Shown piece by piece: positions 140 to 22,646 of a DNA stretch of 33,338 nt. The stretch covers positions 1 to 33,338 of the forward strand of contig JAIELQ010000011.1 in assembly GCA_019752815.1 (NCBI GenBank), given 5' to 3'. The stretch is from Patescibacteria group bacterium. Lineage in GTDB: Bacteria; Patescibacteriota; Minisyncoccia; Phycocordibacterales; UBA918. A program made the position numbers and the translations under genes. Numbering within the stretch: the first letter of the stretch is position 1; each line of letters begins with the position of its first letter. The notes under the pieces were generated by a model that was given only the letters and a program-made list of their open reading frames with translations, made no database searches and was not told where the DNA came from.

Positions 140-440
140 TGTGGAATGAAGAAACGAGCGTAGCGACTATTCTGAATTTCTTTCCCGATTTTTTCTTTCC
201 TTGGGAAAATCGCTGGATGCTACGAACTTTTAAGCCATCACCGTGAGAAAGTGCCCAATGGCACTTTTGCAAGAGGTTGCCAGCTCTTTTGTTAAAAAGA
301 GCGACAACCTGAACAGCTTCTGTAAGAAGCAAAAAGTATGGCTCGAACATTAAAATCCTAGACTTCTTACAGAAGCTGTCCACTCATTGGGTATTTTTGC
401 AAAATCTCTCAATGAGTCTTGCGGAAGCTAAACGCTTCCT
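140..440. other. Hairpin-dense intergenic region between rpmB and the M50 protease gene
   Basis: Inverted repeats read directly: ACAGCTTCTGTAAGAAG (313-329) / CTTCTTACAGAAGCTGT (363-379), perfect 17 bp; GTTG..AGCTCTTTT/AAAAGAGC..CAAC (~276-307); AAGTGCCcaatGGCACTT (~249-266); ACTCATTG/CAATGAGT (~382-417); GGAAGC taaac GCTTCC (423-439). Confidence 0.6.
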
Positions 441-520
441 CACCTAGTATCTGACGGATTATTGGACGGACTCTATTGAGGTAATAGCGTGTTGATTTTT
501 ACGGACTCGCCCCGGTAATG

Positions 521-1672: not shown

Positions 1673-1793
1673 CAATTTCCAAAATAAGCGATAGGCAGTG
1701 TTGAACTTCGGCAAAATGAAGTTCACCGTACTCAGGTATGGCTCACTCCATTTTCCTCGTTCGCCTCGCCTCTCATCTTATTTTGAAAATCGC
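1672..1793 (+). repeat. Stop-codon-proximal long hairpin element, copy A (after rpsL)
   Basis: GCAATTTCCAAAATAAG ... CTTATTTTGAAAATCGC arms; apex TTCA-CCGTAC-TCAG-GTATGG-CTCA (1722-1745). Same apex and length as three other loci. Confidence 0.8.
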
Positions 1794-1979
1794 ACAGTGC
1801 TGATGGAGAACCTTGGAACATAATGTATTCCAAGTAAAAATTACAAATAGTCTATATTCGCTACAGATAATGAAAGAGCTCAACTAGTAATAGTACGGAG
1901 CAGAATATGCGAAGAATGAAACAGGAGGCTTTGCCATACTATTCATTCTTAATTATCAAAACAATTAAGAAACTAATCC

Positions 1980-15101: not shown

Positions 15102-15285
15102 TATAGTTACTGTAGCGTACGAATATTGTCGTGTAAAGTAAACTGTACATGACAATTTTGGATAAAATTGCGACTGCTCTTGGCAGTTCGTGTTTTTTCA
15201 ATGGTAGTAAAAGGGGTACAATAGTAACTGTTTAGTGCGTATAGATTGTTATATACGACAGACACTACCCATTAATCATACTTAT

Positions 15286-16611
15286 ATGTCACCTATCACC
15301 GCCATTAGTACGCAGATTCACGCTACCTATCCACACCAGCCAACGTTTCTCCAGGCTGTGGATGAGGTACTCGCTACCCTCGCGCCGGCCCTGGAAGCAA
15401 ATAGCGCCAGCAACGCTGACTATGCGCGCGTAGCTCGCTTACTTTCACCTGAACGGGTGATTAGTTTCAAGGTTATTTGGAGTGATGATGCGGGGACCTT
15501 GCAACATAACATTGGATATCGTATTCAATTCAATTCCGCTCTGGGGCCGTATAAGGGTGGCCTCCGGTTTGATGCGTCTGTTACTGAAGACATTCTGAAA
15601 TTTCTTGGTTTTGAACAAATTTTTAAAAACGCCTTAACGGGACTGCCACTCGGCGGCGGGAAAGGCGGGAGTGATTTTAATCCCAAAGGGAAATCAGAAA
15701 ATGAGATTCGCAGTTTTTGTCGTGCGTTCATGACGGAATTGTATCGACATATTGGAATTGATGTTGATGTGCCAGCGGGCGATATGGGGGTTGGTGGTCG
15801 TGAGATTGGGTACATGATGGGGATGTATAAACAGATAGTAAATCGTTCAGAAGGTGTGATGACGGGCAAAGATCCTTTGATTGGTGGTAGTCTCGGTCGA
15901 ACTGAAGCCACCGGCCACGGCGTGGTGTATTTTGCCGAAGCGATGTTGCGCGAGGCTGGTAAAAATCTCGTAGGTATGACCGCCGTGGTGTCTGGTTCAG
16001 GTAATGTTGCCGAGCATACGGTCCGGATGCTGATTGCAAAAGGGGCGGTGGTACTGACTATGTCGGATCGTGGTGGCTATATCCATAAACCGGAAGGACT
16101 AACTGAGTCTGACGTTAACGCCATTATGAGTCATAAAAATACCGGCAGTGATCTGGCGACGCTTACACATGAAGGCATTGAGTATCGTACCGGCGCTCCT
16201 TGGCAGACGGTGGTAGCAGAAGCATATTTCCCTTGCGCCACTCAAAATGAAATTAGTGAAGCTGATGCCAAGGTAATTGCTAATCACGCTACTCTGGTGG
16301 TTGAGGGAGCAAACATGCCACTTTGTAACGAAGCGGTGTCGGTGCTCAACGCCGCACATATTCCACATGCTCCCGGCAAGGCCAGTAACGCCGGTGGGGT
16401 AGCCGTGTCCGGACTCGAAATGGCACAAAATGCGGGACACTATCCGTGGACTAGAGAACGGGTGGAATCGGAGCTGATGGAAATCATGGAACGCATTCAC
16501 ACTACGTGTAAAGAACACGGCACAGAATCGTGGGGAATAGATTACTTCAAAGGAGCAAATATCGGCGGAGCCAAGCGCGTGCTCGCAGCTATGGAGAAGT
16601 TAGGCTGGTAA
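15286..16611 (+). CDS. gdhA: Glutamate dehydrogenase (probably NADP-type)
   Basis: NIGYRIQFNSALGPYKGGLRFDASVTEDILKFLGFEQIFKNALTGLPLGGGKGGSDFNPKGKS..DVPAGDMGVGGREIGYMMG..TGHGVVYFAEAM. Start at MSPITAIST. Confidence 0.95.
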   Translation: MSPITAISTQIHATYPHQPTFLQAVDEVLATLAPALEANSASNADYARVARLLSPERVISFKVIWSDDAGTLQHNIGYRIQFNSALGPYKGGLRFDASVTEDILKFLGFEQIFKNALTGLPLGGGKGGSDFNPKGKSENEIRSFCRAFMTELYRHIGIDVDVPAGDMGVGGREIGYMMGMYKQIVNRSEGVMTGKDPLIGGSLGRTEATGHGVVYFAEAMLREAGKNLVGMTAVVSGSGNVAEHTVRMLIAKGAVVLTMSDRGGYIHKPEGLTESDVNAIMSHKNTGSDLATLTHEGIEYRTGAPWQTVVAEAYFPCATQNEISEADAKVIANHATLVVEGANMPLCNEAVSVLNAAHIPHAPGKASNAGGVAVSGLEMAQNAGHYPWTRERVESELMEIMERIHTTCKEHGTESWGIDYFKGANIGGAKRVLAAMEKLGW

Positions 16612-16733
16612 AACGCCCAAAATTGTTTAATTTCTGTGTTGCCCTGCGGCAAAATATTTACTCACCGTATAGAAATACGGCTCATAAAATTTTCCTTGCG
16701 CGTCTTGAACTTAAATCAATTTTGAACGTTTTA
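16609..16733 (+). repeat. Stop-codon-overlapping long hairpin element, copy C (after gdhA)
   Basis: TAAAACGcccAAAATTG ... CAATTTTgaaCGTTTTA; apex TCA-CCGTAT-AGAA-ATACGG-CTC. Confidence 0.85.
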
Positions 16734-16900: not shown

Positions 16901-16964
16901 TCGTAAGGCACCCCTATGCACTTTGAAAAAGAAGTTTAATTAACATAATTTACACATATAATAT

Positions 16965-19139
16965 ATGGCTCGAGAATTCCCTATTAATCGCATGCGAAAC
17001 TTCGGTATCGTAGCGCACGTGGACGCTGGTAAAACAACAACTTCAGAACGAGTATTGTTTTACACTGGTATGTCACACAAAATCGGTGAAGTGCACGATG
17101 GTGCAACCGTAACCGACTGGATGGAACAAGAACGTGAACGTGGTATTACCATTACCGCCGCCGCTATTTCTTGTAACTGGTCAAAATCAGAAGTGGTAGA
17201 CCGCAAGGATAAATCACAGATGTACAACTTCAACATCATCGATACGCCCGGTCACATCGACTTTACGGCCGAAGTAAAACGTTCGATGCGTGTGCTCGAT
17301 GGTGCCGTAGTGGTATTTGACTCAGTAGCTGGAGTAGAACCACAATCTGAAACTAATTGGGGGTATGCTGACGAAGCTGGGGTGCCACGTATTTGTTTTG
17401 TTAACAAAATGGACCGTTTGGGTGCTGACTTTGAAAAATCATATGCCAGTATCCTCGACCGCCTTTCTAAAAAGGCCGTGCGAATTCAACTGCCATGGGG
17501 TGCCGAAGATCAACTCAAAGGAGTGGTTGACCTCATTAAAATGAAAGCCTTTGTGTTTGAAGGTGAAATGGGAATGACGGTACGTGAAGTGGAAATCCCA
17601 TCAGAACTCCAAGCTGATGCTGAAAAATACCGCGCTGAGCTCATTGAACGCGTGGTAGAACATGATGACGCAATGATGGAAGCCTTCCTTGAAGGAAATC
17701 TTCCGACTGATGCTGATCTCAAGGCAACATTGCGTAAAGCCGTGCTTGCAAATCAACTGTTCCCAGTAATGACAGGTTCAGCCCTTAAAAACATCGGGGT
17801 ACAGCTCGTACTCGATGCCGTAGTTGATTATTTGCCCGCTCCAACAGATTTGCCAGCCGTACGCGGTATCAATCCAAAAACTGATGAAGAAGTAGAACGA
17901 ACTGCCTCAGATGAAGAACCATTCTGTGCGCTCGCCTTCAAACTTCAAACTGACCCATTTGTAGGACAGCTCACGTTCTTCCGTGTGTATTCAGGTGTGG
18001 TTAAGGCAGGAAGTTACATCTATAACGCAACGACTGGTGAAAAAGAACGATTGGGACGTATTGTGCGTTTGCAAGCTGACAAGCGTACTGAAATTGAAGA
18101 AGTGTACGCTGGAGAAATTGCCGCCGGAGTAGGACTCAAGGACGTAAAGACATCCCACACACTGTGTGATGAGGTAAAGCCAATTGTGCTCGAACAAATT
18201 GTTTTCCCGATGCCGGTAGTGGCGATGCGGGTAGAACCAAAAACCAAGAACGACCAGGAAAAAATGGGAACAGCCCTCAAGAAGTTGGCCGACGAAGACC
18301 CAACATTTATTGTGTCTTCTGATCAAGAAACTATGGAAACGATTATTGCCGGGATGGGTGAATTACACCTTGAAATTCTGGTTGACCGTATGAAGCGTGA
18401 ATTTGGTGTTGAAGCGAACGTTGGTGCACCACAAGTAGCCTATCGCGAAACAATTCAAAACGCCGCCGAAGCAGAACATAAATACATCAAGCAATCAGGA
18501 GGTAAGGGGCAATACGGTCACGTTAAAATTCGCATTAAACCACTGGAACCAATTGCTGATCCAGAAGCTAAAATTGCCAAGAACGTTACGCGGGAAGAAC
18601 ATTTCGAATTCGTTAACAACATCAAGGGAGGAGTAATTCCACAAGAATTTATTCCAGCGGTAATGAAGGGGGCAAAAGAAGCGATGGCGCGTGGACAAGT
18701 GGCGGGATATAAAATGGAAGACGTATCAGTAGAATTGTATGACGGTAGTTACCACGATGTGGACTCGAGTGAAATCGCCTTCCGTCTTGCTGCCATTCAC
18801 GCCTTCCGTGATGCGGCGAAAAAAGCCAACGCTGTCTTGCTTGAACCAGTGATGAAGGTAGAAATTCGTACCCCAGAACAATTCATGGGTGACGTAAACG
18901 GAAACATCAGTAGTAAACGTGGACAGGTAGAAAGTATGGGTGACCTTGGAGACAAAAAAGTAGTAACTGCCTCAGTGCCACTTTCTGAAATGTTCGGGTA
19001 TACCAACACCCTCCGTTCTATGACCCAAGGCCGAGCTAGTATGACCATGACGTTTGACCACTACGACGTAGTACCACCAAACGTGTCGATGGAAATTCGA
19101 AAGGCGCGCGGCGTAAAAGATATTGAAGAGGAGGCTTAA
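16965..19139 (+). CDS. fusA: Elongation factor G
   Basis: RNFGIVAHVDAGKTTTSERVLFYTG, DTPGHIDF, NKMDRLGADF, C-terminal ..MTMTFDHYDVVPPNV. Confidence 0.98.
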   Translation: MAREFPINRMRNFGIVAHVDAGKTTTSERVLFYTGMSHKIGEVHDGATVTDWMEQERERGITITAAAISCNWSKSEVVDRKDKSQMYNFNIIDTPGHIDFTAEVKRSMRVLDGAVVVFDSVAGVEPQSETNWGYADEAGVPRICFVNKMDRLGADFEKSYASILDRLSKKAVRIQLPWGAEDQLKGVVDLIKMKAFVFEGEMGMTVREVEIPSELQADAEKYRAELIERVVEHDDAMMEAFLEGNLPTDADLKATLRKAVLANQLFPVMTGSALKNIGVQLVLDAVVDYLPAPTDLPAVRGINPKTDEEVERTASDEEPFCALAFKLQTDPFVGQLTFFRVYSGVVKAGSYIYNATTGEKERLGRIVRLQADKRTEIEEVYAGEIAAGVGLKDVKTSHTLCDEVKPIVLEQIVFPMPVVAMRVEPKTKNDQEKMGTALKKLADEDPTFIVSSDQETMETIIAGMGELHLEILVDRMKREFGVEANVGAPQVAYRETIQNAAEAEHKYIKQSGGKGQYGHVKIRIKPLEPIADPEAKIAKNVTREEHFEFVNNIKGGVIPQEFIPAVMKGAKEAMARGQVAGYKMEDVSVELYDGSYHDVDSSEIAFRLAAIHAFRDAAKKANAVLLEPVMKVEIRTPEQFMGDVNGNISSKRGQVESMGDLGDKKVVTASVPLSEMFGYTNTLRSMTQGRASMTMTFDHYDVVPPNVSMEIRKARGVKDIEEEA

Positions 19140-19159
19140 GCCGGGGAATATCTTTTACG
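19112..19159 (+). other. Hairpin straddling the fusA stop codon
   Basis: CGTAAAAGATATT (19112-19124, in CDS) / AATATCTTTTACG (19147-19159), 13-bp perfect, with inner GGCTTAAGCC. Confidence 0.7.
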
Positions 19160-19260
19160 GACCGTTTGAGATATTTCTCGAGCTTGCGAAAAGAAATATC
19201 CAAAGGGTGTACTGTTCCTGTAAGGAATGAAGGACATAGAAACCGAAGAATAATTAATAA

Positions 19261-22479: not shown

Positions 22480-22607
22480 GCGCGATTTCTAAAATTACTC
22501 AATCTGCGTTGTTGAACTGCAGAAAATTTAGTTCACCGTACTCAGGTACGGCTCACCAAATTTTCTTTGTTCGCCTAGCATCTCAAGCAATTTAAAAAAT
22601 CGCTCGC
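22480..22607 (+). repeat. Stop-codon-proximal long hairpin element, copy D (between tuf and rpsJ)
   Basis: GCGATTTCTAAAATTACTCAATC ... right arm ...CTCAAGCAATTTAAAAAATCGC; apex TTCA-CCGTAC-TCAG-GTACGG-CTCA. Confidence 0.85.
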
Positions 22608-22646
22608 TAGACTACAAAGTTTGTGTAGATGAAATCTATATTTACC

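Follow-up and report, generated by a model that had tools for sequence, protein, structure and literature searches.

A folded repeat dispersed behind stop codons in a Patescibacteria genome, with its conserved shape on the strand opposite the host gene

What is the long imperfect hairpin that begins at the stop codon of the glutamate dehydrogenase gene (gdhA) of a Patescibacteria (CPR) bacterium, and on which strand does it act? We examined the locus within a 33,338-nt stretch of contig JAIELQ010000011.1 (assembly GCA_019752815.1), hereafter the window, and then searched for relatives of the hairpin in the rest of this 1.04-Mb genome and beyond. The hairpin turned out to be one of about 80 copies of a 125-base folded repeat, nearly always placed just after a gene's stop codon, and its conserved fold belongs to the strand opposite the gene. 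We read it as a new family of small, structure-conserved mobile repeats that settle at gene 3' ends, although a host function remains the main rival.

The repeat behind gdhA and its copies

The first-pass annotation had described an element whose basal stem contains the gdhA stop codon and whose apical closing C-G pair is replaced by a compensatory U-A pair within an otherwise invariant motif, and this observation is correct to the base: TAAAACG lies at 16609-16615 (of which the TAA at 16609-16611 is the gdhA stop), CGTTTTA at 16727-16733, and CCGTAT-AGAA-ATACGG at 16665-16680. The motif CCGTAN(4-10)TACGG occurs three times in the window against 0.14 expected, and its longer version occurs 12 times in the genome and 0 times when read backwards. 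These 12 first copies nearly all fold as long rods, and an alignment of ten copies on a structure named by hand showed changes on both sides at 19 of 28 pairs, with a covariation score of 0.527 against 0.152 in shuffles and at most 0.129 when the structure was slid, and with 0 of 500 shuffles reaching any measure. Two corrections apply: the annotated element is a single copy of a family of about 80, and the motif is not invariant, since the U-A for C-G exchange recurs in 14 of 80 copies in this genome and other pairs of the cap also covary.

Table 1. Copies of the repeat and neighboring features, in window coordinates (R2 is the covariance model of the opposite strand described below)
Position	Strand	Feature	Support
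16609..16733	-	Copy C, whole rod including the gdhA stop codon; model core 16623-16719; folded strand minus, host gene on plus	R2 75.3 bits on minus, E 3e-17; bottom fold -45.3 vs top -32.4 kcal/mol
16661..16684	-	Apical part of copy C: hairpin CCGTAT/ATACGG flanked by UGAG...UGAG (tandem G.A pairs on the minus strand)	
15235..16611	+	gdhA (Glu/Leu/Phe/Val dehydrogenase), host gene of copy C	Pfam PF00208, E 9e-69
1673..1800	-	Copy B behind rpsL (core 1685-1780); outer ends approximate	R2 72.0 bits
2448..2572	-	Copy A behind rpsG (core 2460-2556); outer ends approximate	R2 73.3 bits
22480..22608	-	Copy D between tuf and rpsJ (core 22496-22590); outer ends approximate	R2 92.9 bits
about 250-450		Compound multi-hairpin element of a second repeat family, upstream of the M50-protease gene	
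19140-19240	sense	Related module behind fusA (GTGTACTGTTCCTGTAAGGAATGAAGGAC at 19207-19235)	
16950-16965; 15290-15300; 22615-22629		TATAAT-like boxes at fusA, gdhA and rpsJ, respectively	

A covariance model (R1) found about 80 copies in the genome and copies in 22 of 23 congeners, at 1 to 48 each, with few in other families of the order. Of the 80 copies in this genome, 62 start 2-22 nt after the stop codon of a co-directional gene, and only about four, by our count, have the stop of a convergent gene equally close on the other side. Random placement relative to gene ends, including inside ORFs, had been named beforehand as the outcome that would refute the annotation, and it was not observed: 62 of 80 copies lie within 25 nt after a co-directional stop, and 7 of 80 overlap an ORF call by more than 30 nt. 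The host genes are of all kinds, including those for RNA polymerase beta' (rpoC), gyrase A (gyrA), an ATP synthase alpha/beta-type subunit, LepA, RNase J, NusB, FtsA, malic enzyme, photolyase, a glucoamylase-like protein and a glycosyltransferase, as well as tuf, such that the repeat is not tied to ribosomal-protein genes, as the annotation had proposed, and its hosts are genes in general rather than highly expressed genes. In one locus (L180, 2376-2597; L numbers denote the stretches extracted around hits), two different units lie in tandem behind one gene. Two similar 3' ends of what looks like the same gene (rpoC at L021), each with its own unit, occur on contigs C1 (L021) and C19 (L205) of this assembly, and C19 may be a contaminant from a related species. 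TATAAT-like boxes a few nt before start codons in the window (Table 1) suggest leaderless transcripts.

Six copies in this genome carry extra arms, including ACAG-CTTC-TGTAA-GAAG and a GGTTG...CAACC hairpin. The same module occurs alone on either strand, as in the compound element near the start of the window, where GCAAGAGGTTG...CAACCTGAACAGCTTCTGTAAGAAG and its inverted counterpart lie back to back, enclosing about 30 nt, and again behind fusA, on the sense strand here and in several congeners (loci L338, L352 and L355). Similar compound forms are present in Syntrophomonas (see below), and hairpin units appear to sit inside one another.

Strand of the conserved fold

At the paired columns of the 80 copies, leaving out two columns beside a loop, the sense strand shows about five times more A.C than G.U, and more pyrimidine-pyrimidine than purine-purine mismatches; read on the opposite strand, these become G.U pairs and G.A mismatches. 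In a CPR-wide alignment of 75 sequences, the opposite strand has G.U 207 vs A.C 35 and G.A/A.G 105 vs C.U/U.C 16, and the loops TCA/CTCA become UGAG/UGAR, i.e., tandem G.A pairs, which are invariant or nearly so. RNA folding energy is lower on that strand in 80 of 80 copies (mean -48.2 vs -34.6 kcal/mol), and with DNA parameters in 79 of 80. Such asymmetry is not expected from a double-strand DNA function, and indicates that the constraint acts, or acted, on the single strand that is antisense to the host gene. However, no promoter-like signal is enriched on that strand beside the copies: TATAAT-like sites to the right of the units are flat and no more common than on the other strand. The interpretation offered by the first-pass annotation is therefore only partly supported: the element is structured, begins at stop codons, carries compensatory changes and is not restricted to ribosomal-protein genes, but its operation as a sense-strand mRNA element is not supported.

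Distribution and signs of dispersal

To determine how far the repeat extends, we scanned 85,462 species genomes for exact matches to the cap motif, which returned 103 stretches; among 80 of these, those with a named group were almost all from CPR lineages (Kaiser-, Zambryski-, Uhr-, Vogel-, Lloyd-, Kerfeld-, Yanofsky-, Sacchari-, Gracili- and Peregrinibacteria), and the model confirmed 88 copies in them. A covariance model of the bottom strand (R2; 29 of 31 pairs with double changes, score 0.662 vs at most 0.154 when slid) hits 35 of 290 genomes of the phylum, scattered over many families, with copy numbers cut because only 14 candidates per genome were scored. In the CPR-wide loci, 64 of 82 copies have a co-directional gene upstream, most of them within -2 to 23 nt. 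Viral contigs contained 0 exact motif hits. Among the non-CPR records with an exact motif hit, Streptomyces and Bipolaricaulota genomes have no copies, but a 3.9-Mb Syntrophomonas MAG, taken here as binned, has 22 on many contigs. The repeat matches no Rfam 15 family: hits over the gathering score were only tRNA and a c-di-GMP-I riboswitch away from the units, and permissive thresholds returned nothing sensible.

Copies that are 84-90% alike share the unit but not the flanks, homology ending near the unit ends, and orthologous sites differ in occupancy. The end of tuf is occupied in 4 of 20 congeners and empty in 11, where a short spacer remains and the next gene starts a few tens of bases on; fusA is occupied in one; and among gdhA orthologues only this genome carries a unit, whereas most others have a plain terminator. 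In contrast, the rpsG end is occupied in about 15 of 21 congeners, and rpsL ends are likewise occupied in many, which also fits a retained host function. At rpsG of two congeners (L233, 1995-2065, and L245, 1404-1475), the apical part of the rod is flipped, with the tandem G.A motif on the sense strand while the outer arms look normal.

In Syntrophomonas, where units occur in both orientations relative to genes, 17 of 21 copies sit by inspection between two direct copies (18-33 nt) of the locus's own terminator-like hairpin, 13-14 nt from the model end on one side and about 40 nt on the other, where an extra hairpin, TTGTCGACAAAGTCGGCAA, lies. One locus (L411, 2540-3000, on contig C9 of the genome numbered G330) is a tandem triple with a period of 182 that includes the terminator hairpin. 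A formal cross-locus test placed 7 of 21 above the 95% level, its threshold being inflated because the extra hairpin is shared between loci, such that the statement rests on reading the repeats, which are different hairpins at different loci. CPR copies show no such direct repeats (2 of 78 and 1 of 22 above the 95% level); instead, their outer arms are locus-specific inverted repeats that often include the stop codon (37 of 62 in the predicted fold) and sometimes the last codons. Avoidance of UGA, as a possible sign of a TA target, was not evident (2 of 62 vs 12 of 139, p 0.23).

Neither of the candidate mobilizing enzymes that we considered tracks or flanks the units. Reverse transcriptase genes are present in only 6 of 24 congeners, with no unit beside them, and the Y1/RAYT-type transposase gene of this genome (207 aa; L257, about 1280-1965, near position 193,563 of contig C1) is flanked by its own palindrome, TCTTAGGGGTTTAACCCCTAAGA, a separate REP-like pair, with no unit nearby.

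Explanations and comparison with known systems

Cumulatively, we consider it moderately likely that copy C belongs to a family of small (about 125 bp, sometimes longer), non-coding, dispersed mobile repeats conserved in shape rather than in sequence. Presence or absence at orthologous sites, similar copies with unrelated flanks and, in Syntrophomonas, copies flanked by duplicates of the local terminator hairpin point to a dispersed, mobile element, and its distribution across congeners and CPR families is patchy, with high copy numbers. The analysis itself establishes that each unit folds into a rod of fixed geometry (outer arms, G.A mismatches, 3 bp, asymmetric loop, 4 bp, loop, about 12 bp, tandem G.A, 6-7 bp cap), that the conserved fold is on the strand opposite the host gene, that units sit directly behind stop codons and come and go between related species, and, from reading the repeats, that related units in Syntrophomonas lie between two copies of the local terminator hairpin. 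What we infer is that the folded single strand, whether ssDNA or an RNA intermediate, is recognized by an as yet unidentified nuclease, recombinase or reverse transcriptase, and that insertion goes to hairpins or stop-proximal sites at gene 3' ends. In this view, staggered cuts at both feet of a terminator hairpin would leave the hairpin duplicated on both sides, whereas in CPR the unit would land just behind the stop codon, its outer arms being kept or made complementary, and any effect on the host mRNA would be secondary. Counting against this view are the absence of direct target repeats from CPR copies, the lack of an associated enzyme among the RAYT and RT genes examined, the frequent occupancy of rpsG and rpsL ends, and the maintenance of structure in situ while sequence diverges. 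A broader reading, which we hold only tentatively, is that of an undescribed class of mobile element spanning CPR and at least one member of the Bacillota, recognized and moved as a folded single strand marked by tandem G.A pairs, which inserts into or beside hairpins at the 3' ends of genes (terminators, stop-proximal palindromes, and one another), duplicating a whole terminator hairpin in one host and anchoring to the stop codon in the other.

The main rival, which we regard as possible but less likely, is a host-serving boundary element: in antisense or read-through transcripts coming from the right, the bottom-strand RNA rod would form just before RNA polymerase enters the gene backwards, and would stop that transcript or mark it for decay. 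This would explain the strand, the place behind the stop codon, the lack of a promoter and the mixed host genes, and it agrees with the roughly 10% of G.U pairs, as is usual for RNA, and with the occupancy of rpsG ends; however, the patchy distribution, both orientations in Syntrophomonas, the terminator-hairpin duplication there and the empty sites at tuf speak against it. A sense-strand 3'-UTR element (mRNA stabilizer, processing site or terminator), as implied by the first-pass annotation, is unlikely. The units do lie in transcribed 3' regions, the top strand also folds, and some rpsG units of congeners have an A-run/G+C/T-run inner stem, but the top-strand fold is the weaker in 80 of 80 copies, and A.C is at least as frequent as G.U on that strand, and far more so outside two loop-side columns. 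Nor are the units plain terminators, since a G+C hairpin followed directly by a T run lies inside 3 of 80, about the shuffled rate, while 22 of 80 have a separate terminator within 200 nt downstream, and the tuf unit lies inside the tuf-rpsJ operon. A by-product of palindrome-perfecting mutation (template switching) without selection, suggested by outer arms that are locus-specific yet complementary, is very unlikely, because perfecting would erase the mismatches and loops that are kept at the same length across CPR and Syntrophomonas and would leave the strand asymmetry unexplained. We also rejected group II intron domain V, which GAGCCGUA...UACGGU resembles, because the C-G positions vary and the distal helix is absent, and TGA recoding or SECIS-type readthrough, because the stops are TAA/TAG in ordinary genes.

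CPR genomes are small and poorly annotated between genes, and a repeat that follows about 8% of the genes of one such genome (80 copies; gene number estimated), keeps one shape across the radiation and nearly always sits at the stop codon is a large unannotated feature. If mobile, it offers a case of shape-based recognition of gene ends, with Syntrophomonas as a host in which the target duplication is visible; if it serves the host, it is a widespread 3'-end control element that acts from the opposite strand. In either case, models R1 and R2 make annotation and tests straightforward.

Among known systems, REP/BIME repeats with RAYT (Y1) transposases (PMC3733652) are likewise imperfect palindromes in intergenic regions, but REPs are 20-40 bp, and the units are not GTAG/CGTC-tagged palindromes flanking a Y1 transposase. 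IS1272/TnSha1 of the IS1182 family (PMC4923244) provides a precedent for terminator hairpins as targets without sequence consensus, but it encodes a transposase and removes part of the hairpin instead of duplicating it, and no link to the present family has been shown. Integron attC sites are recognized by the shape of their folded bottom strand and are located behind a stop codon, and the present units also fold on the bottom strand; by inspection, however, the attC core boxes RYYYAAC/GTTRRRY are not in place, the apical end is the conserved part, and the hosts are housekeeping genes rather than cassettes. The MITE-type small repeats of bacteria (ERIC/RU-1, 127 bp; Ypal/RU-2, 168 bp; RUP, 107 bp; Correia/NEMIS; PMC2229807) are, like the present repeat, about 100-170 bp, non-coding, intergenic, present in many copies, able to fold as RNA and mobile by inference. 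In Syntrophomonas, copies of the end hairpin located away from rod hits showed mostly further hairpin units, in an inspection short of a systematic transposase search. The repeat described here, with no TA or other target duplication seen in CPR, differs from those repeats in being conserved in shape rather than in sequence, in its strand-specific fold with tandem G.A pairs, in its anchoring at stop codons, and in its span across distant bacteria, from CPR to one Syntrophomonas MAG.
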